Source of the DNA: Spartobacteria bacterium
Lineage (GTDB): Bacteria > Verrucomicrobiota > Kiritimatiellia > RZYC01
Direction of reading: 5' to 3'
Assembly (NCBI GenBank): GCA_009929845.1
Contig: RZZM01000010.1
Span: 1-37,751 of the forward strand
DNA length: 37,751 bases
Below, in pieces: positions 775 through 15,976 of the stretch (the first letter of the stretch is position 1; the number at the start of each line of letters is the position of its first letter). Under the pieces are notes generated by a model, which worked only from the letters and a program-made list of their open reading frames with translations, ran no database searches and was not told the origin of the DNA. Both the position numbers and the translations under genes were made by a program.

Positions 775-804
775 TTGATTGAGAAGTTACACGCGATGCA
801 TAAA
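775..804 (+). promoter_or_regulatory. weak candidate promoter for the cas operon
   Basis: TTGATT at 775-780 and CATAAA at 799-804 are separated by 18 bases, about 80 bases upstream of the cas3 start. The match is modest. A separate TATAAA at 765-770 has no -35 partner. Listed only because the large single-direction cas operon needs a promoter in this gap. Confidence 0.22.
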
Positions 805-886
805 AGAGGTTGTCCTGGGGCCGGTCACACGCTACCCTCTTCCTGATCCTGAGATGTTTGGGGTCACAAAGGAGGTTACGAAAACC

Positions 887-3166
887 ATGCGCCCAAGGGA
901 TGTGCGTGAAGAGATTGTGTTGAGTTCGTTCAAGGGATCAATGCCTTTTTATGCCCACAGCCTTGAGGGCAAGGCGCCGTCTGAATGGCAGACGCTCGAG
1001 GCGCACCTGAACGGGGTAGCGAAGTCGTCCGCCGATTTTGCCTCGCCGTTTGGCGGAAATGAGTGGGCGTTCCTTGCCGGGCTTTGGCACGATCTCGGGA
1101 AGTACTCCCCGGCCTTCCAGAAAAAATTGTACGACGCCAACGGCATCGAAGCGCACATCGAAACGACGCCCGGACGTGTTGTGCACTCGGACGCCGGCGC
1201 CCATCTTGCCACCCTCAAAGAATGGCATAACACCGACCGCCTGCTCGCCTGGCTCATCATGGGGCACCACGCCGGTCTGGCCGACTACGACAGCGATAAA
1301 TCCGGCCCCGCCGCTCTCCAAGCCAGAATGCTCGACCCCCAACGCTCCGACCCCGTCCTCCTCAACGTCCCCGACGCTATCCGCAACCATCAAAGACCCG
1401 CCCAGGCCATCCCCAAAGACGCTTCACCCGCCTTTTTTATCCGTATGCTCTTCTCCTGCCTCGTCGATGCCGATTTTCTCGATACCGAGGCCTTTATGAC
1501 CCCCGAAAAGGCCAAAAAACGCGAAAAATATCCCGATTTGGCCGTTTTGGCGGCAAAATTCGACCATTTTTTGGAAAATGTGACAAAAAACGCCCAAAAA
1601 ACGCCCGTTAACGTCGTACGAAACGAAGTCTTGGCGCAATGCCGATGCGCGGCGGACCTCGATCCGACCGTTTTTTCGCTCACGGTGCCCACCGGCGGCG
1701 GGAAAACCCTCTCTTCGATGGCCTTTGCGCTGCGTCATGCCGTCAAACACGCAAAAAGCCGCATTATTTACGTCATTCCCTACACCAGCATCATCGAGCA
1801 GACCGTTGGCGTCTTTCGCGCGATCCCCGGTTTCGAAAACGCCGTCATCGAGCATCATTCGAACATCGCGCTTGATGACGAAGACGCCGAAACCAGCCGC
1901 AGCCGCCTCGCCGCCGAAAACTGGGATGCGCCGATCATCGTCACCACCGCCGTACAATTCTTCGAGTCACTTTACGCCTGCAAGACCAGTCGATGCCGAA
2001 AACTGCACAACATGGTCAATAGCGTCGTCATCTTCGACGAAGCGCAGTGCCTTCCACCCGAATTCCTCCGACCCTGCGTCTTCGCCATTCGCGAATTGCA
2101 GCGATTCTATCGCGTCACCCCCGTGCTCTGCACCGCCACACAACCCGTCCTGAACCACGCCGACCGCTTCGATTTTCGCTTCAGGGAAGGGTTTGAACAC
2201 GTCACCGAGATCGTCAGCGACCCCTCGGGCCTCGCGGAGCGCCTGAAAAGGACCGAAATCCAACTTCTGGACCAAAAAATGGCCGTTTCGGACCAAAAAA
2301 CGCTCCTCGAAGCCCTGAAAAGCGAAAAAGAAGCCGTTTTATGCATCGTAAATCGCAAAGAAGACGCCCGCACACTTGCCCGCGAGCTTCCGAACGAAAA
2401 AACCGTCCATTTATCGACCAATATGTGCGCCGAACACCGGTTTCGGGTGTTCGACGACATCAAGAAGCGACTGAACGACTCGAATGAGCCCTTTTATGTC
2501 ATCACCACCTCGTTGATCGAGGCGGGCGTCGATCTCGATTTCCCCATCGTCTACCGCGCCCTCGCGGGCCTCGATTCCATCGCGCAGGCCGCCGGACGCT
2601 GCAACCGCGAAGGAAAACGCCCCCAAAAAGGAAAAACCGTCATTTTTGTGCCTGAAAACCAGCCCCAATACGTCAAATCTGCCGCCGACATCGCCCAGGA
2701 AGCCCTTTCGGGCGAACTTTCGGCCATTTTCGCGCCCGAAACCATCGAAAACTACTTCAAAACCCGCTTCTGGCAGCTCGGAGAGGAAAAATTGGACCAA
2801 TTTGGCATCCTTGAACGGCTTTCGGGCGGCTTCAACTACGCCTATCGCTCCGTTGCCGCCGATTTTCGCCTCATCCGCGACGACTGGACCCGCCCGGTCA
2901 TCGTTCCATACGGCAAAGCCCTCGAAATCATCGATAATCTTCACGAACCCCCCTGGAATGTACGATTCCTGCTCCGAAAACTCCAACGCTACACCATTAC
3001 CATCGAAAAATCCCTGCACGACCTCATGCGCCAACGCGACGACATCCACCCCGTCCACGATTTTCCAAACCTTTTCACTCTCAACCCCCTCTTCTACAAC
3101 AAAAAATACGGCTTCATCCCACCCGATGAAGCGGGCCAAACCAACCCGGAGGATTTTATATGCTGA
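887..3166 (+). CDS. cas3: Cas3 helicase-nuclease, type I-C
   Basis: Cas3 is recruited by Cascade to R-loops, nicks the displaced DNA strand and unwinds it in an ATP-dependent way. The 759-residue product has an N-terminal HD nuclease: YAHS near residue 23, WHDLGK at 67-72, a histidine at 100 (VVHSDAGAH) and GHHAG around 127. A superfamily 2 helicase follows, with Walker A PTGGGKT at 268-274, DEAQ at 384-387, CTATQP near 415, and motif VI QAAGRCNR at 567-574. HD and helicase are in one chain, as usual for I-C. I start at ATG 887 because GGAGG lies at 871-875. In-frame TTG 779 has no ribosome site. ATG 941 (SMPFYAHS) is the alternative and would look more like typical I-C Cas3 N-termini. It is the first gene of the operon, 54 bases before cas5. 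Confidence 0.95.
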   Translation: MRPRDVREEIVLSSFKGSMPFYAHSLEGKAPSEWQTLEAHLNGVAKSSADFASPFGGNEWAFLAGLWHDLGKYSPAFQKKLYDANGIEAHIETTPGRVVHSDAGAHLATLKEWHNTDRLLAWLIMGHHAGLADYDSDKSGPAALQARMLDPQRSDPVLLNVPDAIRNHQRPAQAIPKDASPAFFIRMLFSCLVDADFLDTEAFMTPEKAKKREKYPDLAVLAAKFDHFLENVTKNAQKTPVNVVRNEVLAQCRCAADLDPTVFSLTVPTGGGKTLSSMAFALRHAVKHAKSRIIYVIPYTSIIEQTVGVFRAIPGFENAVIEHHSNIALDDEDAETSRSRLAAENWDAPIIVTTAVQFFESLYACKTSRCRKLHNMVNSVVIFDEAQCLPPEFLRPCVFAIRELQRFYRVTPVLCTATQPVLNHADRFDFRFREGFEHVTEIVSDPSGLAERLKRTEIQLLDQKMAVSDQKTLLEALKSEKEAVLCIVNRKEDARTLARELPNEKTVHLSTNMCAEHRFRVFDDIKKRLNDSNEPFYVITTSLIEAGVDLDFPIVYRALAGLDSIAQAAGRCNREGKRPQKGKTVIFVPENQPQYVKSAADIAQEALSGELSAIFAPETIENYFKTRFWQLGEEKLDQFGILERLSGGFNYAYRSVAADFRLIRDDWTRPVIVPYGKALEIIDNLHEPPWNVRFLLRKLQRYTITIEKSLHDLMRQRDDIHPVHDFPNLFTLNPLFYNKKYGFIPPDEAGQTNPEDFIC

Positions 3167-3220: not shown

Positions 3221-3880
3221 ATGAATAGCAACCCATTTCGCTTGCGGGTCTGGGGTGAGAATGCCTGTTTCACCCGCCCGGAGATGAAAGTCGAGCGTGT
3301 TTCCTATGAGGTGATGACGCCTTCGTCGGCACGCGGTATTCTCGAGGCCATCCTATGGAAGCCCGCTATCCGTTGGAACGTCCTGCGCATCGATGTCCTG
3401 AATCCGGTGCGGTGGGAATCGGTCCGCCGCAACGAAGTCGGCGCCGTGATCCCCGCCGGATCCGTCAAATCGGCGATGAAGAAGGGCGGTGGTGACCTGG
3501 GGCTCTTTATTGAGGACCATCGGCAGCAGCGCGCCGGTCTTTTCCTGCGCGATGTCGCTTATGTCATCCATGCGGCGTTCGAACTGACGGATAAGGCGGG
3601 AGCCGACGACTCAGTCACCAAATTCGAGCAGATGTTCATTCGTCGGGCGACCGCCGGACAATGCTTTCACCGGCCCTATTTCGGATGCCGCGAGTTTGCG
3701 GTCAGTTTCGAATTCATTCCCCAAAATACCGAGGGCCCGCCGCCGATCGCCGACACGAAGGACCTTGGATGGATGCTCTACGACCTGGATTATTCAGGGG
3801 ATGAACCCCTGCCGCAATTCTTCCATGCGCGCCTCGAGCGCGGCTCACTCGATCTGCAAAACGTGGAGGTGCGCTCATGA
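3221..3880 (+). CDS. cas5c: Cas5c (Cas5d), type I-C crRNA-processing nuclease and Cascade subunit
   Basis: In type I-C there is no Cas6. Cas5c itself cuts the repeat RNA at the base of its stem and stays bound to the 5' handle. The 219-residue product starts like the family (RLRVWGENACFTRPEMKVER), with the conserved VSYEVMTPSSARGILEAI helix around residues 28-45 and an EDHRQQRAGLFLRDVAYV segment around 96-113, the region that carries catalytic residues in characterised Cas5d proteins. A strong ribosome site AAAGGAGG ends 5 bases before ATG 3221. The stop overlaps cas8c by 4 bases (ATGA), indicating coupled translation. Exact catalytic residues were not assigned because no alignment was possible. 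Confidence 0.93.
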   Translation: MNSNPFRLRVWGENACFTRPEMKVERVSYEVMTPSSARGILEAILWKPAIRWNVLRIDVLNPVRWESVRRNEVGAVIPAGSVKSAMKKGGGDLGLFIEDHRQQRAGLFLRDVAYVIHAAFELTDKAGADDSVTKFEQMFIRRATAGQCFHRPYFGCREFAVSFEFIPQNTEGPPPIADTKDLGWMLYDLDYSGDEPLPQFFHARLERGSLDLQNVEVRS

Positions 3881-5643
3881 TCCTCAAGGCTCTCGCCGAT
3901 TATTATGAACGCCTTCTCGATGACCCGGCGTGCAACATCGCGCCACCAGGTTTCGAGCGGAAGGCGATTCCTTTCCTGATCGTCATCAATCGCAATGGCG
4001 ACTTTGTCAACCTGCGCGATACGCGAACAGGGGAGGGGAAAAAGAAGTCCGCCCGCGAATTTTTGGTGCCACAAGGCGAGAAAAAAGCAGCAGGGATCAA
4101 GGCCAACTTGCTCTGGGACAATCCTGAATATGTCTTTGGCGTACCGAAAAGTGATTCAGACAGAGATAAAAAACGCGCTCAAGATGCCTTTTTCGCCTTC
4201 AAAAAGCGGATTTCCGACACTTTTCCGTCCGATTTCGCTGATGAAGGACTTCAAGCCGTGCGAAAATTCATAAAAAATGCCGATTTTTCATATGTTTCAG
4301 CGAAAAATCCCGAAATTTGGGCCGAAATTGTCGAAAATCGGCCAAATTTGAGTTTTGTCCTCGAAAATGACGACCAGTTGATCGCCCAGAGAGGGGTAAT
4401 CGTTGAATTCATCAAAAAAAGCAACGAAACGGACGGCGAAAGCTGTCAGGCATGTGCCGTGACGGGCGAATTGGATGTGCCGGCCTCCTTGCATACAGCC
4501 ATCAAGGGCGTCTGGGGGGCGCAAACCTCCGGCGCCAATATCGTGTCGTTCAATCTGAGTGCGTTCTGTTCTTTTGGAAAGAAGCAGGGCTTGAACGCAC
4601 CTATCGGGCACAAAGCGGAAACGGCCTATACCAAGGCCCTGAATCATCTTCTGCGCAAAGGGTCGCGGCAGCGCATCCAGGTGGGTGACGCCAGCACGGT
4701 TTTCTGGGCGAAGCAGGCCTGCCCGTTCGAGGAAGATTTTTCGTTTTTCCTGGGCAGTGTGTCTGCCGAAAGCGAGGAGGATGCCAGCGGCAAGCTTCGC
4801 AGCCTGTTCAATGCCGTTAAGACCGGTGTTACGCCTATAGAAGACGATCTGCCGTTTTTCGTGCTGGGGCTGGCGCCAAATGCCGCGCGCATCGCTGTGC
4901 GTTTCTGGTGCGAGGGGTCGATCCGTGACTTCAAGGAGCGCATCGTGCGGCACTTCGGGGATATCGCTATTGTACGCGCGCCACACGACCGCGAGTTCCT
5001 TTCGCTGTTTATGCTGCTGACCAGCACGGCGACGGAAGGCAAGGCGGACAACATCCCGCCGAATCTGGGGGGCGATCTCATGCGGGCTGTGCTGACGGAT
5101 GCGCCGTATCCCCGGACACTGCTGGCGAATGCCATCCGACGCTGCAAAGCCGAACAGCGCGTCACGCATCCGCGGGCCGCTATTATCAAGGGTGTTTTGG
5201 AACGCGATCGAAGAATGAACCGAACCAATGAGAAGGAGGAAATACATATGTCGCTCGATAAAGATAGCGTTAACATCGGATATGTACTCGGGAGGCTTTT
5301 TGCCGTCCTCGAACGTATTCAGGAGCAGGCCCAAACGGGCCTCAACAAAACCATTCGCGATACCTATTTCGGCGCCGCGTGCAGTTCGCCGTTGGTGACG
5401 TTTAAGCGGCTTCAGGACTTGGCCGTTCATCACCTGGCCAAAATCCGCAACAGCGGCAAGAGTACGGTCTGGCTCGATAAGCTGCTGCAGGAGGTTATGG
5501 ACAAGCTGCCGTCCGCCGGTCTCCCGGCGACCCTGACGCTCGAAGACCAGGGGCGCTTCGCCATTGGTTATTATCATCAGCGCCAGGATTTCTTCACAAA
5601 GAAAGAACAGGAACCATCTGCTAACGAAGGAGAAAAATCATGA
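3877..5643 (+). CDS. cas8c: Cas8c (Csd1), large Cascade subunit
   Basis: The large subunit recognises the PAM and helps open target DNA. The 588-residue length is typical of Csd1. The family signature [16 protein letters not shown] lies at residues 211-226, preceded by a CxxC pair ([10 protein letters not shown], about 189-198) and followed by [13 protein letters not shown]. The start ATG overlaps the cas5c stop by 4 bases, and the TGA stop overlaps cas7c in the same way. The C-terminal 131 residues are also a separate small subunit, translated from an internal start at 5248. Upstream of that start, the bases encoding the linker [13 protein letters not shown] contain a perfect ribosome site, so the linker sequence is constrained by two functions. 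Confidence 0.93.
5233..5240 (+). promoter_or_regulatory. internal Shine-Dalgarno inside cas8c driving cas11c
   Basis: AAGGAGGA lies inside the cas8c reading frame, 7 bases before an in-frame ATG at 5248. It is as strong as the site before cas5c and much stronger than chance would favour inside a coding region. Independent translation of a small subunit from cas8c is established for type I-C systems; here the ribosome site is directly visible. Confidence 0.85.
5248..5643 (+). CDS. cas11c: Cas11c, small Cascade subunit translated from within cas8c
   Basis: Predicted 131-residue helical protein identical to the C-terminus of Cas8c, starting [20 protein letters not shown]. In type I-C Cascade, two copies of Cas11 form the belly of the complex and stabilise the R-loop. 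The evidence is the in-frame ATG at codon 458 of cas8c with AAGGAGGA 7 bases upstream. The sequence matches the expected small-subunit character: a [12 protein letters not shown] helix, then [15 protein letters not shown] and HHLAKI. It shares its stop, and the coupling to cas7c, with cas8c. That this product accumulates is an inference from the ribosome site and the known family behaviour. Confidence 0.85.
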
Positions 5644-6500
5644 GTACCCCCATCAACAACCGTTATGAATTTGTCATGCTGTTCGATGTCAAGGACGGCA
5701 ACCCCAACGGCGACCCGGATGCCGGCAACCTGCCGCGCATCGATCCAGAAACGGGCAACGGTCTGGTAACCGATGTCTGCCTGAAGCGCAAGGTGCGCAA
5801 CTACATCGCACTGGTCAAAGGCGAGCAGCCCCCCTTCGAGATTTACATCAAGGAAAAGGCGGTCCTGACCAATCAGCAGAAGAAGGCCTACGAGGCCCTG
5901 GATGCAGATGAAAAAAAGGAGGCTTCGCAAGTCGAGCAGGCCAAGGCCTGGATGTGTAAAAATTTCTACGATGTCCGCGCATTCGGCGCTGTTATGTCGC
6001 TGAAAGAATTCAACTGCGGACAGGTAAGGGGGCCCGTGCAGTTCACCTTCGCGCGCAGCGAAGACCGGATATTCACCGGCGAGCACTCGATTACGCGCAT
6101 GGCGGTGGCCACGCAGGCGGAAGCCGATAAACAGCACGGCGACAACCGTACGATGGGCCGCAAATTTACAGTGCCCTACGGGCTCTACCGCGCGCATGGC
6201 TATATCTCCGCGCCGCTCGCGAAACAGACCGGCTTCTCAGAAGAAGACCTTGAACTCTTCTGGAATGCCCTCCTGAATATGTTCGACCACGATCGCTCGG
6301 CGGCCCGCGGCGAAATGGCCGTGCGCAAGCTGATCGTCTTCAAGCATGACGGCGAACTCGGCAACGCGCCCGCGCAGAAGCTCTTCGAGCTGGTGGGTGT
6401 CGAAAAGAACCGCGACGATCAGCCGCCCCGTTCTTTTGCGGACTATACGGTCACGCTCGGCGCGCCGCCCGTCGGCGTCGAACTGATCGAGATGCTCTAA
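5640..6500 (+). CDS. cas7c: Cas7c (Csd2), crRNA-backbone subunit of Cascade
   Basis: Cas7 polymerises along the crRNA spacer to form the Cascade filament. The 286-residue product begins with the characteristic [20 protein letters not shown], then [20 protein letters not shown] and LKRKVRNYI. These are the RRM-like fold and loop residues conserved in Csd2. SITRMAVAT in the middle and the C-terminal GVELIEML also fit the family. ATG 5640 overlaps the cas8c/cas11c stop, with AAGGAG at 5627-5632 as ribosome site. A strong stem-loop begins 11 bases after its stop, so transcripts covering the effector genes may end or be stabilised there. Confidence 0.95.
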
Positions 6501-6511
6501 GACGAGAATTG

Positions 6512-6566
6512 AAAACCTCCACTGCGTCAGGCTGGCTTGTTACGGATTTGACGCAGTGGGGATTTT
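6512..6566 (+). other. strong stem-loop between cas7c and the nuclease gene
   Basis: AAAACCTCCACTGCGTCA (6512-6529) pairs with TGACGCAGTGGGGATTTT (6549-6566), with 16 of 18 positions exact and a 20-base loop. The AAAA/TTTT outer ends give it the shape of a bidirectional terminator or attenuator, but the run after the stem is only four T. It could reduce read-through into the HEAT-nuclease and cas4-cas1-cas2 genes or protect the 3' end of effector mRNA. Confidence 0.7.
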
Positions 6567-6585
6567 CTGAGAATTGTAACAAGTC

Positions 6586-7452
6586 ATGGATATTCAAAAC
6601 GAACGTAAACTCGCAGCGCGCGCGACCGAACTGGGAAAAAGCGGGCGTGCTGAGGCCTTTGAGGAGCTGACTGAACTGGTGCGTTCATCTTCTGCACTGG
6701 TCAGGCGTCTCGCGGCCTCTGCGATGGGCAAGCTTGCCGGGATCATTCCTGCCGAACCGGCGGTGAAGGCGCTGATTCCCCTGCTGGGGGATGCGCATCC
6801 TCAGGTTCGGCAATACACAGCAAAGGCCCTCAGCGCCTTTGGAGCTGATGCGAAAGACGCACTGCCCGATCTGCGTGATCTGTACCGCAATGCATCAGAA
6901 ATGGATTATGTCAAACGATCAGTGTTGACCGCTGGCAAAGTAATCCGCGCTTCGGTAGATATAGCGCAAAAGCAAGCCGTGCACACCTGTCAGCGCTGCG
7001 GCGTTCGCCTCGAACACGATGAATTCGCCCGCTCACAAAAGGCCTTTCAGCGTCCGTTCTGCAACTATTGCTTCGACGAAGTCTTCCTTGAGCGACGCAA
7101 CTTCGAGACCAAAGTCGAGTTGCAGAAAAATATCCGCGCCAAGGATGGCGCCTGGGTGCAGTCCGACGGCGAACGCCTGATCTGCGAGGCGCTTCATGCC
7201 GCAACCATCAGCTACCGCTATGACGAGCGCTTCCGCATACTCGATGGCTATGCCATTCGGCCGGATTTCTATCTCCCTGAATTCGATGTCTATATCGAAT
7301 ACTGGGGCATGGACACCGCCGATTACAAAATCGGCATGCTCAAAAAGCAGCAGCTCTATCAGCAGCAAGGCAAGAAACTCATTTCGCTCTATCCGGCCGA
7401 CAAGCCGCATATGCGGGAAACACTTATGCGGAAACTCGATATGATCAAATAA
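6586..7452 (+). CDS. HEAT-repeat / zinc-finger / PD-(D/E)XK nuclease-like protein inside the cas operon
   Basis: A 288-residue protein that is not a standard type I-C Cas protein. Residues 20-123 form about three HEAT-type helical pairs (for example LVRRLAASAMGKLAGI and VRQYTAKALSAFGADA). A CxxC...CxxC zinc knuckle follows (C135, C138, C159, C162). Residues 193-270 match a restriction-endonuclease-like fold: SDGERLICEAL (E196), RPDFYLP (D227), VYIEYWGMD (E238) and a final KKQQLYQQQGKKLISLYP segment. This resembles the nuclease modules attached to some UvrD/HelD-type helicases, where the usual ExK lysine is replaced. The start at 6586 has no clear ribosome site and lies 20 bases after a strong stem-loop, so expression may be low. 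Its position between interference and adaptation genes suggests a role in either stage or in anti-phage cleavage; this is inference. Confidence 0.8.
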   Translation: MDIQNERKLAARATELGKSGRAEAFEELTELVRSSSALVRRLAASAMGKLAGIIPAEPAVKALIPLLGDAHPQVRQYTAKALSAFGADAKDALPDLRDLYRNASEMDYVKRSVLTAGKVIRASVDIAQKQAVHTCQRCGVRLEHDEFARSQKAFQRPFCNYCFDEVFLERRNFETKVELQKNIRAKDGAWVQSDGERLICEALHAATISYRYDERFRILDGYAIRPDFYLPEFDVYIEYWGMDTADYKIGMLKKQQLYQQQGKKLISLYPADKPHMRETLMRKLDMIK

Positions 7453-7512
7453 GAATGCGCGCTATGCTTTGTGCCGGGAACGCGCAATATCACGCAAAAA
7501 GCGGAGTCAGCC

Positions 7513-8160
7513 ATGTCGGACAATAAAAACTGGACGGAAGAGGATTTGCTCCCGATTTCCGCGCTCCAGCATCTGATATTCTGCGAGCGACAGTGCGCAT
7601 TGATCCATATCGAGCAGCTTTGGGATGAAAACCGATTTACTGCTGAGGGCCGTGTTATGCATGAACGGGTTCATGAACTCGGCGCGGAGCAGCGGGGCAG
7701 GGTGCGGGTTGCCCGGGGCTTGCGTATCCGGTCACTCGAGTTGGGGCTGATTGGACAGGCCGATATCGTCGAGTTTCATCGACAGGATGATGGATCGGAA
7801 GTTCCATACCCTATCGAGTATAAGCGGGGACGCGCCAAACCCTCTGACTGCGACAAAATCCAACTTTGCGCGCAGGCGCTCTGTCTGGAGGAAATGCTCA
7901 GCACGCACATTCCGGAAGGGGCGCTTTTCTATGGCAAACCCCATCGGCGATTAATGGTCCCCCTGGATAATGCGCTGCGCGCCTCGACCGCCGAAACTGC
8001 CCAGCGCCTGCATGCATTGATTCGCTCTGGCATCACCCCGACCCCGGAGTATGAGCGTCGCAAGTGCGAGGCCTGTTCGCTCTACGATCTGTGCCGTCCA
8101 CGCGCTTTCCTTGAGGGCGGGAATGTCGCCCAATACCTCGAAAGGATGCTGTCCGAATGA
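7513..8160 (+). CDS. cas4: Cas4, RecB-like iron-sulfur nuclease for spacer processing
   Basis: Cas4 trims prespacers and selects those with a correct PAM, working with Cas1-Cas2. The 215-residue product has the RecB-type motifs H50, GQAD (D84), IEYKRG (E102, K104) and DKIQLCAQAL (Q117). Four cysteines for a 4Fe-4S cluster are placed as in the family: C24 in FCERQC and C185, C188 and C194 in the CEACSLYDLC tail. I use ATG 7513 because GGAG lies 6 bases upstream; a GTG at 7471 would add 14 residues with no support. The stop overlaps cas1 by 4 bases, so the adaptation genes form a coupled unit. Confidence 0.93.
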   Translation: MSDNKNWTEEDLLPISALQHLIFCERQCALIHIEQLWDENRFTAEGRVMHERVHELGAEQRGRVRVARGLRIRSLELGLIGQADIVEFHRQDDGSEVPYPIEYKRGRAKPSDCDKIQLCAQALCLEEMLSTHIPEGALFYGKPHRRLMVPLDNALRASTAETAQRLHALIRSGITPTPEYERRKCEACSLYDLCRPRAFLEGGNVAQYLERMLSE

Positions 8161-9188
8161 AGAAATTCCTGAACACGCTGTTTGTTACCACGCAGGGCGC
8201 TTATCTCAACAAGGAGGGAGAATCCGTCGTCGTTTCCATAGAAAAGACCGTGCGGTTGCGCGTGCCGATCCATACGCTTGGCGGTATCGTCTGCTTTGGA
8301 AATGTCCTCTGCAGCCCTTTTCTGATGGCACATTGCGCGCAAAATCAAGTGCTCATCAGCTTTCTGACCGAAAACGGTCGTTTTCTGGCCCGAGTGACCG
8401 GCAAGGTGTCCGGCAATGTCCGTTTGCGTCGCGCGCAATATCGCATGGCTGACGATGAGGCGATCCGCCTGACGTTGGCGAAAACTTTTGTTTGCGCCAA
8501 AATTGCCAATGCGCGAACGGTCCTGCAGCGTGCGCTTCGCGATCATGCCGACAAACTCGAAGACGATCCCTTCACGCCTGTCATCCTTCGCCTGAGCCGC
8601 GTTATCGATGCTGTGCGCAGTGTCGATAACATGGAATCCTTGCGCGGCTGCGAAGGCGATGCGGGCCGCGAGTACTTTGGTGTCTTTGATCACATGATCA
8701 CCGCCGGGAAGCCGGAGCTGAGTTTTTCGGCGCGCAATCGACGGCCCCCCACCGATCCGGTTAATGCGCTGTTGTCTTTCATCTATGTGCTGCTTGCGCA
8801 CGATTGCGCGGGCGCGCTTGAAGCCGTCGGACTCGATCCCCAGGTGGGCTTTCTGCACAGTGATCGGCCCGGACGCGCCGGCCTGGCCCTTGACCTGATG
8901 GAAGAGTTCCGTCCGTTCTTTGCTGATCGTCTGGTGTTGTCACTCATCAACTTAAAGCAAATTAACGCCAGGGGGTTCACATCCACTGAAAGTGGCGCGG
9001 TGGAAATGAACGATGCGACGCGCAAAGAAGTACTGACCGCTTACCAATCCCGCAAACAAGATGAACTCCGGCATCCCTATTTAAATGAACCCGTGCCCAT
9101 CGGGATGCTGATGTTCGCGCAGGCGTTGCTCATGGCGCGTTATATCCGTGGTGATCTGGATGGCTATCCCGCATTCTTCTGGAGGTAA
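8157..9188 (+). CDS. cas1: Cas1 integrase, type I-C
   Basis: Cas1 is the metal-dependent integrase that inserts new spacers at the leader end of the array. The 343-residue length is typical for I-C. Metal-binding residues are visible as E166 (RGCEGDAGREYF), H234 (GFLHSDRPGR) and the acidic cluster in LALDLMEEFRP (D246 to E250). The N-terminus MKKFLNTLFVTTQGAYL is the usual beta-sandwich opening of subtype I-C. ATG 8157 overlaps the cas4 stop, and cas2 follows after 6 bases. No truncation or missing residue was seen, so the adaptation module looks functional. Confidence 0.96.
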   Translation: MKKFLNTLFVTTQGAYLNKEGESVVVSIEKTVRLRVPIHTLGGIVCFGNVLCSPFLMAHCAQNQVLISFLTENGRFLARVTGKVSGNVRLRRAQYRMADDEAIRLTLAKTFVCAKIANARTVLQRALRDHADKLEDDPFTPVILRLSRVIDAVRSVDNMESLRGCEGDAGREYFGVFDHMITAGKPELSFSARNRRPPTDPVNALLSFIYVLLAHDCAGALEAVGLDPQVGFLHSDRPGRAGLALDLMEEFRPFFADRLVLSLINLKQINARGFTSTESGAVEMNDATRKEVLTAYQSRKQDELRHPYLNEPVPIGMLMFAQALLMARYIRGDLDGYPAFFWR

Positions 9189-9194
9189 TCTGTT

Positions 9195-9488
9195 ATGATG
9201 GTACTGGTAAGCTACGATGTCTCGACCATTGATAAAGCCGGACGCGCCCGACTGCGCAGAATCGCCAAAATTTGCCTCAACTATGGACAACGCGTTCAGA
9301 ATTCTGTTTTTGAGTGCGATGTCGATCCTGGCCAGTGGGTCAAGCTCAAGAATCAGTTGGAAAGAATCTACGATCCCGGCTCAGACAGCCTGCGTTATTA
9401 CTATTTGGGCTCCAACTGGCAAAGAAGGGTTGAACATCAAGGAGCCAAACCCACATTGGATATTCGAAATGATCCACTTATCATATGA
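9195..9488 (+). CDS. cas2: Cas2, adaptation complex subunit
   Basis: Cas2 dimers bridge two Cas1 dimers in the integration complex. The 97-residue protein shows the ferredoxin-like fold signature MVLVSYDVST (aspartate 8) followed by GRARLRRIAKICLNYGQRVQNSVFEC, and the NWQRRVEHQG tail common to subtype I-C. GGAGG at 9181-9185, overlapping the end of cas1, serves as ribosome site. Either of two adjacent ATG codons (9195 or 9198) could be used. It is the last cas gene, and the CRISPR leader follows directly. Confidence 0.95.
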   Translation: MMVLVSYDVSTIDKAGRARLRRIAKICLNYGQRVQNSVFECDVDPGQWVKLKNQLERIYDPGSDSLRYYYLGSNWQRRVEHQGAKPTLDIRNDPLII

Positions 9489-9723: not shown

Positions 9724-12700
9724 GTCGCCCCCCTCGCGGGGGCGTGGATTGAAACAGCCATTCTGTACCCGGCTTGTTGACGGGCGAGTCGCCCCCCTCG
9801 CGGGGGCGTGGATTGAAACGTGCCTGTGCTTGTTGAGGATACCGCCACAACGGAGTCGCCCCCCTCGCGGGGGCGTGGATTGAAACACTTCATCAATGGC
9901 AATCGTTTTTGTGGCCTTCTGTCGCCCCCCTCGCGGGGGCGTGGATTGAAACATTCAGCATCAGCAAAGACTTGCCCTGCGCTGGGTCGCCCCCCTCGCG
10001 GGGGCGTGGATTGAAACTTTACATTCTTGTTAGTCGTTAGCTGTCCGTTAGTCGCCCCCCTCGCGGGGGCGTGGATTGAAACATAAACAAGGTGAACCCC
10101 AGCGACTTCACCGCGTCGCCCCCCTCGCGGGGGCGTGGATTGAAACTCGTTATCCATTTCCCTTACTCCTTTTTTTGGTTGTCGCCCCCCTCGCGGGGGC
10201 GTGGATTGAAACAGGACGCCCCAGTCCAGTGCGCTTGAGCCGTTGAGGTCGCCCCCCTCGCGGGGGCGTGGATTGAAACTATTTTGACAGGGAACGGGTT
10301 ACAAATGCGCCTGGTCGCCCCCCTCGCGGGGGCGTGGATTGAAACGACCTCCGTTGTAGCAGTATCCTCAACAAGTAGTCGCCCCCCTCGCGGGGGCGTG
10401 GATTGAAACGCCGGCAAGCCATATCTCCCGGTCCAGCCTGTGTCGCCCCCCTCGCGGGGGCGTGGATTGAAACATACGCCGTTCCTTTTCTCCGCGTGCA
10501 GGATGCGTCGCCCCCCTCGCGGGGGCGTGGATTGAAACCGTGGCCGCTGTCCATGTCAAAAATAAAGCCCGTCGCCCCCCTCGCGGGGGCGTGGATTGAA
10601 ACTTTTGCCACCCCTTAACCTGTGCGCAACCCTCGGTCGCCCCCCTCGCGGGGGCGTGGATTGAAACTTTATTATCGCAATTATTACACGGTCAATTACA
10701 GTCGCCCCCCTCGCGGGGGCGTGGATTGAAACAGATGGTTGGTTGTCGAGTCAGCCGCCGCCCATGTCGCCCCCCTCGCGGGGGCGTGGATTGAAACGCG
10801 AGCGCAGCAATAGACCTTGCAGGCTTGTCGAGTCGCCCCCCTCGCGGGGGCGTGGATTGAAACCCGGTCAAGCCTGTCCACGTCTGCAAAGTATATCGTC
10901 GCCCCCCTCGCGGGGGCGTGGATTGAAACGGATGCTGGCGGGACGCAAACGCGACGTGCGAGTCGCCCCCCTCGCGGGGGCGTGGATTGAAACAGCACTG
11001 CATCAGCAAGGGATGGATCGCGTGGGGTCGCCCCCCTCGCGGGGGCGTGGATTGAAACACGCGCGCATGCCGGGGGCCGACCTTGTCACGGTCGCCCCCC
11101 TCGCGGGGGCGTGGATTGAAACCTGTTCGCGCTGCGGGGTGATGAGCGAGGCGACGTCGCCCCCCTCGCGGGGGCGTGGATTGAAACTGAAACTGCCGGA
11201 CGACGCGGATGTAAACTCCGTCGCCCCCCTCGCGGGGGCGTGGATTGAAACTTCGACGTATGGCCCGCCGGCGCGCAAGTCCAGTAGTCGCCCCCCTCGC
11301 GGGGGCGTGGATTGAAACTACGGCGACACGTTGCTGTTCACCTCCGACAACGTCGCCCCCCTCGCGGGGGCGTGGATTGAAACACCCACAAAAGCGCGTT
11401 TGAGTGGGTTGGTCTGGGTCGCCCCCCTCGCGGGGGCGTGGATTGAAACGCCAAATGCATTATTATTATACCCACCAACAGCCGTCGCCCCCCTCGCGGG
11501 GGCGTGGATTGAAACGTATACAAACGCACTGACGCTTCGCGGGGACTTGTCGCCCCCCTCGCGGGGGCGTGGATTGAAACAGCTCGTCGCGCTCTGACGG
11601 ACTGAGAGAAACGTCGCCCCCCTCGCGGGGGCGTGGATTGAAACTTGGCTTAACAAATTGATGTGTCCACGGCGCTGGTCGCCCCCCTCGCGGGGGCGTG
11701 GATTGAAACGTGCCGTTCAGGTACAGGCCCCCGGAAGCGTAGGTCGCCCCCCTCGCGGGGGCGTGGATTGAAACAACGGCAAGACGGAAGATGCCACAAA
11801 TACGGTGTCGCCCCCCTCGCGGGGGCGTGGATTGAAACCCGGTCAAGCCTGTCAACGTCTGCAAAGTATATCGTCGCCCCCCTCGCGGGGGCGTGGATTG
11901 AAACACCGATCCAGCGAACCCCGCCGATTTCTGTTTCGTCGCCCCCCTCGCGGGGGCGTGGATTGAAACGGCGCAAGCCCTGAAGCGATAACCATCGTAC
12001 CGAAGTCGCCCCCCTCGCGGGGGCGTGGATTGAAACACGGTCGGCGTTGCCCAGACTTGTGCACTCAAGTGTCGCCCCCCTCGCGGGGGCGTGGATTGAA
12101 ACCCGTCTACCTCACGCCATACGGGGTCGAAGTCCTTGTCGCCCCCCTCGCGGGGGCGTGGATTGAAACGCCGGTCAAGCCTGTCAACGTCTGCAAAGTA
12201 TATCGTCGCCCCCCTCGCGGGGGCGTGGATTGAAACGAGCCAGCGCTTATATTGGCTTGCGCTCATATGTCGCCCCCCTCGCGGGGGCGTGGATTGAAAC
12301 CGGTCAGTATAGATGTTATGCCAGCGGAATCAGGTCGCCCCCCTCGCGGGGGCGTGGATTGAAACTGTGATCAGACCGTATTTGATTGGGAGGTGTAGGT
12401 CGCCCCCCTCGCGGGGGCGTGGATTGAAACGCGCCGGGCCGCTCTCAATCATTAGATATATGTAGTCGCCCCCCTCGCGGGGGCGTGGATTGAAACTCTG
12501 CCTGCCGGTACATAAGCCAGACCGACCACCGTCGCCCCCCTCGCGGGGGCGTGGATTGAAACCTATTGGAGAAGACGGCAGCGCGATTGCCTAAGTCGCC
12601 CCCCTCGCGGGGGCGTGGATTGAAACTAACATCGGCAAGATATGAGGGGCCATAAAATGTCGCCCCCCTCGCGGGGGCGTGGATTGAAACGTCCACACGC

Positions 12701-14262
12701 TGCCGTCCCATGTCAGCACATCGTCGCCCCCCTCGCGGGGGCGTGGATTGAAACGTCACGGGGACCGGGTGGACCAACATGCAGATATGTCGCCCCCCTC
12801 GCGGGGGCGTGGATTGAAACGACAGTAAGTGGAGGGAGGAGTAACTCTGCGTCGGTCGCCCCCCTCGCGGGGGCGTGGATTGAAACAAATGTGTTGCTCA
12901 TGGTATGGTGGCCCTTCTTGGTCGCCCCCCTCGCGGGGGCGTGGATTGAAACACCGTGTGCGAGCACATAGTCGCTATCAGCGTCGTCGCCCCCCTCGCG
13001 GGGGCGTGGATTGAAACAGATGCGCGCGCGGTCCTTCGCGTGCCGGGATGGTCGCCCCCCTCGCGGGGGCGTGGATTGAAACAGGTGTGTGGGTGTTCAC
13101 GATGGGGGAATACGAAGTCGCCCCCCTCGCGGGGGCGTGGATTGAAACTTCTTTCAACAACTGGACAAATCCAAACATAGACGTCGCCCCCCTCGCGGGG
13201 GCGTGGATTGAAACCTTTGACATTCGAGGCGTGGAACTATGGCACCGGTCGCCCCCCTCGCGGGGGCGTGGATTGAAACCTCGTCACCTGTTCGCCTTAT
13301 CTCGCCGCAACATGGTCGCCCCCCTCGCGGGGGCGTGGATTGAAACTTTTAGATGACGTGGGCCGTAACCGCCTATGGATTGTCGCCCCCCTCGCGGGGG
13401 CGTGGATTGAAACTTTCCTGCGATTAAGCAGGATGTTGGAATAACAGTCGCCCCCCTCGCGGGGGCGTGGATTGAAACAAAGGGTGCAGAAAACGCAATG
13501 TGTATCAAGCGTCGCCCCCCTCGCGGGGGCGTGGATTGAAACGAGTGGTGTAAACACGCGCACTGCGAGCTGTGGGGGTCGCCCCCCTCGCGGGGGCGTG
13601 GATTGAAACGTTTTAGTGGCATTTGTACCCTGGGCGGTGGCCGGGTCGCCCCCCTCGCGGGGGCGTGGATTGAAACATGTTATGGATGTTCCGGGTCGGG
13701 GAAATGGTCGTCGCCCCCCTCGCGGGGGCGTGGATTGAAACGAGCGCAGCGGTAGTGACAAACATCTACGTGGTCGCCCCCCTCGCGGGGGCGTGGATTG
13801 AAACGTACTGTCTGTACTACACATACGACCGGACTAAGTCGCCCCCCTCGCGGGGGCGTGGATTGAAACAGCAGGTACTAATAATTTAACAACCTAAAGC
13901 CCGTCGCCCCCCTCGCGGGGGCGTGGATTGAAACAGAAGCTTTTTAACCGCCTCACCAAGGCGGAAAGTCGCCCCCCTCGCGGGGGCGTGGATTGAAACT
14001 CCGCGGAAAAACGTGGGAAAACAGCGGCGTGTACGTCGCCCCCCTCGCGGGGGCGTGGATTGAAACGTCGTAGGTTTGGTATGCGGTTACATCATTGGTG
14101 TCGCCCCCCTCGCGGGGGCGTGGATTGAAACACCGCGTCACAAAGCACGAGCCGATTGACAATGGGTCGCCCCCCTCGCGGGGGCGTGGATTGAAACAAA
14201 CCTATCGGATGTGGACGCGCCGGACCCGACGTCGCCCCCCTCGCGGGGGCGTGGATTGAAAC
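9724..14262 (+). CRISPR. type I-C CRISPR array, 70 repeats and 69 spacers
   Basis: A 32-base repeat beginning GTCGCCCCCC and ending GTGGATTGAAAC is present 70 times by hand count, with spacers of 31-35 bases. All copies I read are identical, including the last at 14231-14262. Repeat bases 3-9 (CGCCCCC) pair with 15-21 (GGGGGCG) over a 5-base loop. Cleavage at the stem base would leave the 11-nt handle TGGATTGAAAC, as known for Cas5c processing. Spacers 18 (10864-10897), 33 (11839-11872) and 38 (12170-12204) are near copies. Spacers 2 (9820-9854) and 10 (10346-10377) overlap as near reverse complements. No spacer visibly matches the rest of this window. Open frames over the array on both strands are repeat read-through, not genes. 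Confidence 0.99.
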
Positions 14263-14683: not shown

Positions 14684-15920
14684 AGCGCAAGGCCTTTTGC
14701 AGGACGTCCTTCAGGCTTTCCCGGTTGTAGGGTTTCTGGATGAAGCCGACCTCTACATCGGGCAATTGTTGCTTGATCTGGCTCTCGCTGTATCCGCTCA
14801 TCATGATGACCGGTACGTCGGGTTTGATTTCCCGCAGTTCCTGAAGGGTGGCGATTCCGTCCTTGCGTGCCATGGCCACGTCCAGCATAACACAGTCAAT
14901 CTCCGTGTGCCCCTCTTTGAAGATGGCGACAGCCTCGTCGCCGTCTCCGGCGGTAATGACCGTGAACCCGAGCTTGTTGAGCATGCGCTCCCCGACGGTG
15001 AGGATGGTCGCCTCATCATCGACCAGCAGGATAATGCCGTGTTCGCCCCAGGGCGCTTCCGCGTCCTGACCGGCGGCGGACTCCGGCGGAACCAGCGCGG
15101 GAAACAGGATGCGGTACCCGCTGCCGCTTCCCGGCCCGTGGATCATTTTTATGGTCCCCTTGTGGGCCCGCGTGATGGCGATGACAACCGCCATGCCCAG
15201 GTCCTTTCCCGCATTCTTTTCCGTATAGGAGGGGTGTTCCTTTGAGGGGGCTGTTTCGGGAAGGCGATGGACCACTTCGACATAGACGTAGCGTCCCGGG
15301 TGGAGGCCTTCTTCGCTGAAGGTTTCGCGAAGGTAGTCTTCGTCGCAATGCATCGCGCCGGTGTTGAGACGGATTTCGCCCGGTCGCGCGCCGATTTCAT
15401 CGGCGGCATTGATCAGCATGTTCATGATGATCTGGCTGAGCTGAACGGGGTCCGCCGCAATCCGGGGCAGGTGGTCGTTCATATCCTCGCGCAGTTCAAT
15501 GTTCTTGGAGATCAGTGCGTGGGCCAGGTTGGTCATCCCCTTGATGACCTGGTTGATCTCAATCTCCCGGACGCCGCCGGGTTTTCCCGCATAGGCCATC
15601 ATCTGCCGGCACAGGTCGGAGGCGCGGTTGGCGCACAGGATGATGTCGTCCACCACACTGTGCAGGGGGGAGAACACGGGGATGTCGTCCGAGATCAATT
15701 CCGCATTCCCCAGGACGCCCATCAGCAGGTTGTTGAAATCATGGGCAATGCCGCCCCACATCATCTCGAGGGTTTCCAACTTCTGTGCGCTGACCACGCG
15801 CTGGTCGACAGCCTGGCGTTCACTGCGCAGTTGTTGGAGTTCCGCCTCCAGCTCCGCGACGCGGTCCGGCAGGCGGGTATCCTGGTCTTCCCTGTTTGTA
15901 TGGATGTTTTCCTGAGTCAT
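14682..15920 (-). CDS. hybrid histidine kinase / receiver protein with degenerate ATP-binding motif
   Basis: A 412-residue soluble protein with no sensor or membrane segment. An N-terminal coiled coil (about 18-45) leads into a HisKA dimerisation helix with GGIAHDFNNLL (H60). A HATPase region follows with the N box NMLINAADEIG (N171), and then a receiver domain with acidic D301/D302, phospho-acceptor D347 (VMLDVAM) and K396 (QKPY). At the G1 position, where related kinases have SDTGxGM, this protein reads VVHRLPETAP. The ATP lid is also altered (HPSYTEKN for DPFFTTK), and G2 is GKDLGMAVV. ATP binding is therefore doubtful; it may act as a phosphatase, a phosphotransfer scaffold or a pseudokinase. 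GGGAGGA precedes the start at 15920. Confidence 0.85.
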   Translation of the reverse strand: MTQENIHTNREDQDTRLPDRVAELEAELQQLRSERQAVDQRVVSAQKLETLEMMWGGIAHDFNNLLMGVLGNAELISDDIPVFSPLHSVVDDIILCANRASDLCRQMMAYAGKPGGVREIEINQVIKGMTNLAHALISKNIELREDMNDHLPRIAADPVQLSQIIMNMLINAADEIGARPGEIRLNTGAMHCDEDYLRETFSEEGLHPGRYVYVEVVHRLPETAPSKEHPSYTEKNAGKDLGMAVVIAITRAHKGTIKMIHGPGSGSGYRILFPALVPPESAAGQDAEAPWGEHGIILLVDDEATILTVGERMLNKLGFTVITAGDGDEAVAIFKEGHTEIDCVMLDVAMARKDGIATLQELREIKPDVPVIMMSGYSESQIKQQLPDVEVGFIQKPYNRESLKDVLQKALR

Positions 15921-15976
15921 GGTTGTATCCTCCCGAAAGTATAGGCGCCTCTTCGAAAAAGGAAAGCGCTGACTGT

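Follow-up and report, generated by a model that had tools for sequence, protein, structure and literature searches.

The closest catalogued counterpart of the nuclease described here is the PADLOC model PDLC01150, HEAT_CxxC_PDDEXK, which has the same three parts: HEAT repeats, a zinc site and a PD-(D/E)XK nuclease. The PADLOC entry gives a name only, and a literature search returned no paper describing the family or its function; the name may stem from a 2018 PNAS survey of CRISPR-linked genes. Free-standing homing endonucleases (PD-(D/E)XK or Vsr-like enzymes, NUMOD3 type, Holliday-resolvase-like) have the catalytic part and the scattered insertion at gene junctions in common with the present family. 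Unlike them, this family has a HEAT array instead of NUMOD, has no intron and is strongly biased to type I cas operons, and any target sequence is hypothetical. Cas4, the PD-(D/E)XK nuclease of CRISPR adaptation, belongs to the same superfamily and is encoded by the neighbouring gene, whereas the nuclease has a zinc site and HEAT repeats where Cas4 has an iron-sulfur module, and a true cas4 stands alongside. REP/RAYT systems consist of one gene with a nuclease fold between short structured repeats, and most have few copies per genome. The combination of one nuclease gene with short structured repeats resembles the unit described below, in which the enzyme is a PD-(D/E)XK protein rather than a tyrosine transposase and the repeats have not spread to large numbers of sites.

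Host operon and domain architecture

The window (the whole 37,751-nt stretch of DNA analysed) contains a complete type I-C operon around the gene at 6586-7452, assigned by Pfam, NCBIfam and PADLOC models, with a 70-repeat array alongside:

779..3166, + strand, cas3 (I-C), PADLOC Cas3c 1.7e-215
3221..3880, + strand, cas5c, TIGR01876 above cut-off
3877..5643, + strand, cas8c, TIGR01863 above cut-off
5640..6500, + strand, cas7c, TIGR02589 above cut-off
6516..6585, + strand, structured leader ending at the start codon of the nuclease gene, from fold, covariation and covariance model
6586..7452, + strand, HEAT / zinc / PD-(D/E)XK nuclease gene, 288 aa, PADLOC PDLC01150 HEAT_CxxC_PDDEXK
7471..8160, + strand, cas4, TIGR00372 above cut-off; likely true start ATG 7513, from sequence
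8157..9188, + strand, cas1c, TIGR03640 above cut-off
9195..9488, + strand, cas2, TIGR01573 above cut-off
9724..14262, + strand, CRISPR array of 70 identical 32-nt repeats and 69 spacers of 31-35 nt, from repeat analysis

As the initial annotation stated, cas5/cas8, cas8/cas7 and cas4/cas1 overlap by 4 bases, while the nuclease gene is spaced off on both sides. The gaps are 85 nt to cas7c and 18 nt to the first start codon of the cas4 ORF (60 nt to the more likely cas4 ATG at 7513). Overlooked at that stage was that the 85-nt gap is occupied by the structured element at 6516-6585. In the array at 9724-14262, spacers 18, 33 and 38 (3 of 69) are nearly one 34-nt sequence, one of them offset by a base, and spacers 2 and 10, read from opposite strands, share an overlap that contains mismatches. 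Such recurring spacer matches suggest repeated uptake from one virus family.

The ORF at 6586-7452 (+) encodes 288 residues, and all elements of the layout first proposed for it, namely HEAT repeats, zinc cysteines and a nuclease core, are supported:

6592..6975, + strand, HEAT-repeat part, residues 3-130; Pfam HEAT_2, AlphaFold2, PDB matches to alphaRep and HEAT proteins
6988..7071, + strand, zinc-binding part, residues 135-162 (C135, C138, C159, C162); cysteine conservation
7126..7449, + strand, PD-(D/E)XK nuclease part, residues 181-288 (E196, D227, E238, K254); invariant residues, topology, structure-library and PHROG matches

The HEAT part consists of four helix pairs (Pfam HEAT_2 E=9.5e-12), and HEAT repeats are the sole annotation given to the protein by Pfam and NCBIfam; a Pfam Zn_ribbon_2 match on the C-terminal part is below the cut-off (E=0.0023). 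AlphaFold2, run with an alignment of 102 relatives, gave a model with mean pLDDT of 88.9 and pTM of 0.55, a pTM at which the parts are predicted confidently and their mutual placement is uncertain. Specifically, the helices of residues 3-130 have block means of pLDDT 89-99, and the nuclease part is less confident, with pLDDT of 67-94. A single-sequence AlphaFold2 model of the C-terminal part was poor (pLDDT 48.6) and was set aside.

The predicted catalytic residues E196, D227, E238 and K254, together with P226, are invariant in 102/102 aligned relatives. Similarly, zinc cysteines C135, C138 and C162 are invariant in 102/102 relatives, and C159 is present in 101/102. The order helix-strands-helix-strand-helix predicted by AlphaFold2 at residues 194-287 is that of the alpha-beta core fold. 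Matches in a viral structure library include endonuclease I, Holliday-junction resolvase, restriction, TnsA-N, Vsr and homing endonuclease entries, those to PD-(D/E)XK enzymes at E of 1e-4 to 1e-3, and the nuclease part matches PHROG families of Holliday-junction resolvases (E=1.2e-6) and homing endonucleases (E=7.9e-5). A PDB fold search returned only HEAT/armadillo-type structures among the matches listed, the HEAT signal having swamped the nuclease part, and a PDB sequence search with the nuclease part gave no match. No Cas4 model of Pfam, PADLOC or NCBIfam matches the protein. L073, an archaeal outside relative, has the same WYLPDFDVYIEYWG core and three motifs of the homing-endonuclease module NUMOD3. 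By sequence, then, the window protein combines HEAT repeats and a zinc site with a PD-(D/E)XK nuclease part whose predicted active site is intact, and structure prediction and profile search both support a nuclease fold. It would probably cut DNA, given the likeness of its catalytic part to homing endonucleases and Holliday-junction resolvases.

The initial annotation took this layout to be unlike that of any established Cas protein known to it. This view is not supported, since the PADLOC model HEAT_CxxC_PDDEXK matches the full length of the protein (515.5 bits, E=8.7e-156, 1-286 of 288 model positions) and is matched by 102/102 relatives. The protein family was therefore catalogued as defence-linked before now. 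New here are the structured leader, the direct evidence that the gene inserts, and its occurrence across four type I subtypes; leader, spread and subtype range are absent from the PADLOC entry.

A structured leader upstream of the nuclease gene

The leader is predicted to form a stem between A1 (6516-6529, CCTCCACTGCGTCA) and A1' (6549-6560, TGACGCAGTGG). A loop segment, a2 (CTTGTTAC, 6538-6545), pairs with a2' (GTAACAAG, 6576-6583), which lies next to the start codon, forming a pseudoknot, with a weak hairpin in between. The fold of the window leader has a z of -4.4, and its pseudoknot is the best-scoring among 113 leaders. One plan, in which 84.3% of cells pair, fits 13 leaders drawn from I-C, I-E and orphan copies. 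Across these 13 leaders, double changes number 27 vs 13.6, and the covariation score is 0.256, compared with 0.183 in shuffles (0/500 as high), which ignore relatedness, and 0.05-0.11 when the structure is slid, a control that somewhat favours the structure because it was derived from the same 13 leaders.

A covariance model (R1), built without the pseudoknot, has a single match in the 5.6-Mb host genome, namely the window leader (E=2.9e-16). A dispersed REP-type repeat was accordingly rejected for the window leader, which has one copy in the host genome. In 388 genomes the model has 16 matches at E<=1e-4. Of these, 11 lie immediately upstream of the gene and 2 immediately downstream; one adjoins a remnant and two stand alone. 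Leader copies downstream of the gene are found at L006/G015, L020/G203 and L136/G029. Solo leaders with no nuclease gene adjoining lie at L251:2091-2171 (G181) and L252:3964-4037 (G148, of the window's own family). Rfam contains no family for the leader and gave one chance match (E=3.2). In the window's subfamily, the predicted leader of about 70 nt is thus near-exclusive to the nuclease gene. Other subfamilies, and a subclade in which the gene start overlaps the preceding stop codon, are without the leader and have only short GACTYGCT-type motifs. These flank motifs are nearly confined to the nuclease gene, and some copies repeat them on the other side. G210, alone among ten genomes searched, has three GACTCGCTNNGCTCGCC copies away from any copy of the gene (L232:2652, L231:3173 and L231:6458).

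The leader may be a mere autoregulatory mRNA element that is bound by its own protein and is not mobile, an arrangement compatible with any role of the enzyme. It abuts the start codon, with a2' at the ribosome-binding position, and it covaries as an RNA would. However, copies occur downstream of the gene or alone (G148, G181), with no ORF of the family following, and we lean against this reading, while regarding it as a serious possibility.

Distribution, insertion and apparent exchange among operons

A scan of 84,980 species yielded 74 loci with relatives, in 21 of which (besides the window) the gene occupies the same cas7c/cas4 junction of I-C. These 21 loci span Kiritimatiellota, Lentisphaerota, Verrucomicrobiota and Desulfobacterota. 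In two of the loci examined (L028:11413-12429 and L037:10604-11602) an extra gene, which we take to encode a RhuM/Fic-type protein, sits between the nuclease gene and cas4. With subtypes other than I-C named from gene order and sequence reading rather than profile search, relatives are also found in I-E between cas8e and cse2 (L003, L033) or between cas6e and cas7e (L152, L153, L161, L190), in I-G at several positions (L049-L060 and others), and in I-B after cas3 (L020, L045, L047). In one I-C locus (L157) the gene is upstream of cas3. The claim that the gene lies exactly between interference and adaptation genes therefore stands for the window and the 21 other I-C loci; it fails for the I-E and I-G placements, and most copies are not in CRISPR loci at all. 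All cas genes near a copy (230/230) are codirectional with that copy.

An even draw of the phylum comprised 388 genomes, of which 65 contain the gene and 83 contain I-C (cas8c). Within 7 kb of the 89 copies, at least two cas families are found for 25, one for 3 and none for 61. Only 13 of the 83 I-C genomes hold the gene in the I-C locus, so it is not a core Cas gene of I-C. The 13 copies in I-C operons nevertheless compare with about 0.05 expected, on an estimate that I-C operons make up roughly 0.05% of the DNA, and type I operons, of four subtypes, hold 25-28 of the 89 copies, as expected of a CRISPR-linked ancillary gene. At the level of gene neighbourhoods, members of the predicted nuclease family turn up repeatedly, far above chance, in I-B, I-C, I-E and I-G operons.

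Chromosomal copies outside CRISPR are scattered, for example at trpA/manC and beside polA, uvrA and carB, and have no conserved neighbour genes in common. A housekeeping gene was rejected on its patchy presence (65/388 genomes) and lack of fixed neighbours, and the CRISPR linkage holds. A DNA-repair operon gene was rejected as a rule: polA, uvrA and recJ neighbours recur 1-4 times each, in different species. A phage or plasmid gene was also rejected, as there was no phage match and plasmids matched only through the zinc-nuclease part of UvrD-like helicases; two distant viral contigs were matched. Short cas matches overlapping the gene in a second-round BLAST were frame artefacts and were disregarded. 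The zinc and nuclease part is about 30% identical to part of UvrD-helicase-domain proteins on plasmids NZ_CP087722.1, NZ_CP045340.1 and NZ_CP010886.1. At L039, outside CRISPR, two copies from different subfamilies lie 4 kb apart (10001-10897 and 15029-15937), and genome G345 has five copies or fragments of the gene.

One chromosomal site is found in occupied and empty forms. In G395, of genus g3 in the window's phylum, the gene lies between two genes that we read from their sequences as trpA and manC, and it does so too in the related L015 and L016. In G390, G081, G389 and G393 the site is empty, with trpA and manC 0-2 nt apart. The insert consists of about 65-70 nt, the ORF and about 45 nt. 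Occupied and empty alleles thus coexist in one genus, as expected of a homing endonuclease. In G130 the site contains a leader and a truncated, frameshifted ORF, a decayed remnant. Read from these sequences, insertion and decay are directly visible at trpA/manC, and the I-C junction in the window is therefore best read as one more such site. Consistent with insertion into the operon, as originally proposed, cas7 and cas4 are within about 80 nt of each other in 12/14 measured I-C loci without the gene, and the junction is occupied in 21 other loci yet in only 13/83 I-C genomes of the phylum sample. The further proposal, that the insert is a cargo with its own control, agrees with a structured leader private to the gene and with the existence of both occupied and empty sites elsewhere.

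Direct or inverted repeats flank 18/112 copies, compared with about 1.5 expected from dinucleotide shuffles. The flanks of the 112 copies have no uniform ends and no target-site duplication of fixed length. In L097 an 85-nt direct repeat lies on either side of the nuclease gene (1415-1500 and after 2391), and both repeat copies start like the cas3 start (ATGAARYATTATGCGCACAGC).

A tree of 102 copies, from a quick search that left many forks open, needs 13 changes between CRISPR and non-CRISPR context. The I-C copies are not one group. The ten I-G copies, all in CRISPR loci, form one group together with one copy of unknown context, and in two deep groups (10 and 11 rows) every member is non-CRISPR. 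One genome contributes a pair of sister copies, L003 in I-E and L014 in I-C (97*). In two pairs, L047 (I-B)/L048 (I-C) and L045 (I-B)/L171 (I-C), nuclease and Cas1 are mutually nearest while the effectors are unrelated. Specifically, the cas1-cas2 genes of I-B locus L047 resemble those of an I-C locus, and the nuclease gene there is preceded by a 5' piece of a second cas4 (L047:6731-6879) and followed by an intact one, about 80% identical. The cas4 piece looks like a scar of module exchange.

Proposed origin and possible role of the nuclease unit

We consider it somewhat probable that a structured leader and one ORF together form a mobile nuclease unit of a single gene, homing-endonuclease-like and repeatedly captured by type I operons. 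The leader and ORF in the window would be such a unit lodged in the I-C operon, and the leader would serve as a cis site for spread, for regulation of its own gene, or both. Within CRISPR operons, the co-transcribed enzyme would be kept because it helps type I immunity; this is the weakest step. As an auxiliary DNA nuclease it may act where Cascade-Cas3 has opened the DNA, and perhaps it feeds ends to Cas1-Cas2. Cas3, Cascade and Cas1-Cas2 are common to the subtypes whereas Cas4 is not, so that an auxiliary role with Cascade-Cas3 would fit better than a Cas4-specific one. The candidate roles put forward in the initial annotation were prespacer processing, degradation of Cascade-marked DNA or RNA, and an independent effector against phages. 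A stricter version, that leader and gene are a new single-gene mobile element whose endonuclease recognises its own pseudoknotted end and which has been repeatedly domesticated as an accessory nuclease in four type I subtypes, is in our view doubtful.

A selfish free-standing homing-type endonuclease, for which CRISPR operons are tolerated landing sites with no part in immunity, would likewise account for the mobile behaviour, the solo leaders, the remnants, the homing-endonuclease-like nuclease domain and the non-CRISPR copies without conserved neighbours. Stronger purifying selection on CRISPR copies was tested for and none was found: 2/25 copies in CRISPR operons are decayed and 10/61 outside (p=0.5), and this equal decay makes a passenger a possible reading. 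However, no single target sequence explains the strong excess at unrelated positions in four type I subtypes, which needs selection or a targeting bias, nor would pure selfishness predict two deep subfamilies that are all non-CRISPR and an I-G subfamily that is all CRISPR (10/10 with known context). We regard a purely selfish element as unlikely. The choice would be between a helper shared by CRISPR immune systems and a passenger with a preference for CRISPR operons.

Still less likely is an adaptation factor that trims or selects prespacers with Cas4-Cas1-Cas2. The gene adjoins cas4 in I-C and some I-B loci and has apparently moved twice with cas1-cas2 between unrelated effector modules (L047/L048 and L045/L171). 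However, it lies inside the effector block in I-E and I-G and upstream of cas3 once in I-C (L157), Cas4 already performs that job in I-C and I-G, and most copies are without cas1 nearby. Least probable is an anti-phage effector that works independently and sits in the operon to be regulated jointly: the family is in a defence-gene library, and its nuclease part gives weaker PADLOC matches to the defence candidates PDC-S69 and PDC-S68, but non-CRISPR copies share no neighbours, so no common partner or sensor is seen.

The nuclease gene is a real finding, in a family already catalogued, and of more interest than a lone insertion. A defence-catalogued gene with its own conserved structured leader appears to move between genome sites and CRISPR subtypes. 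If the mobile unit is not a helper, it is a warning that linkage to CRISPR neighbourhoods can stem from a mobile passenger. If it helps immunity, it would be a plug-in nuclease that serves type I systems whether or not they have Cas4.
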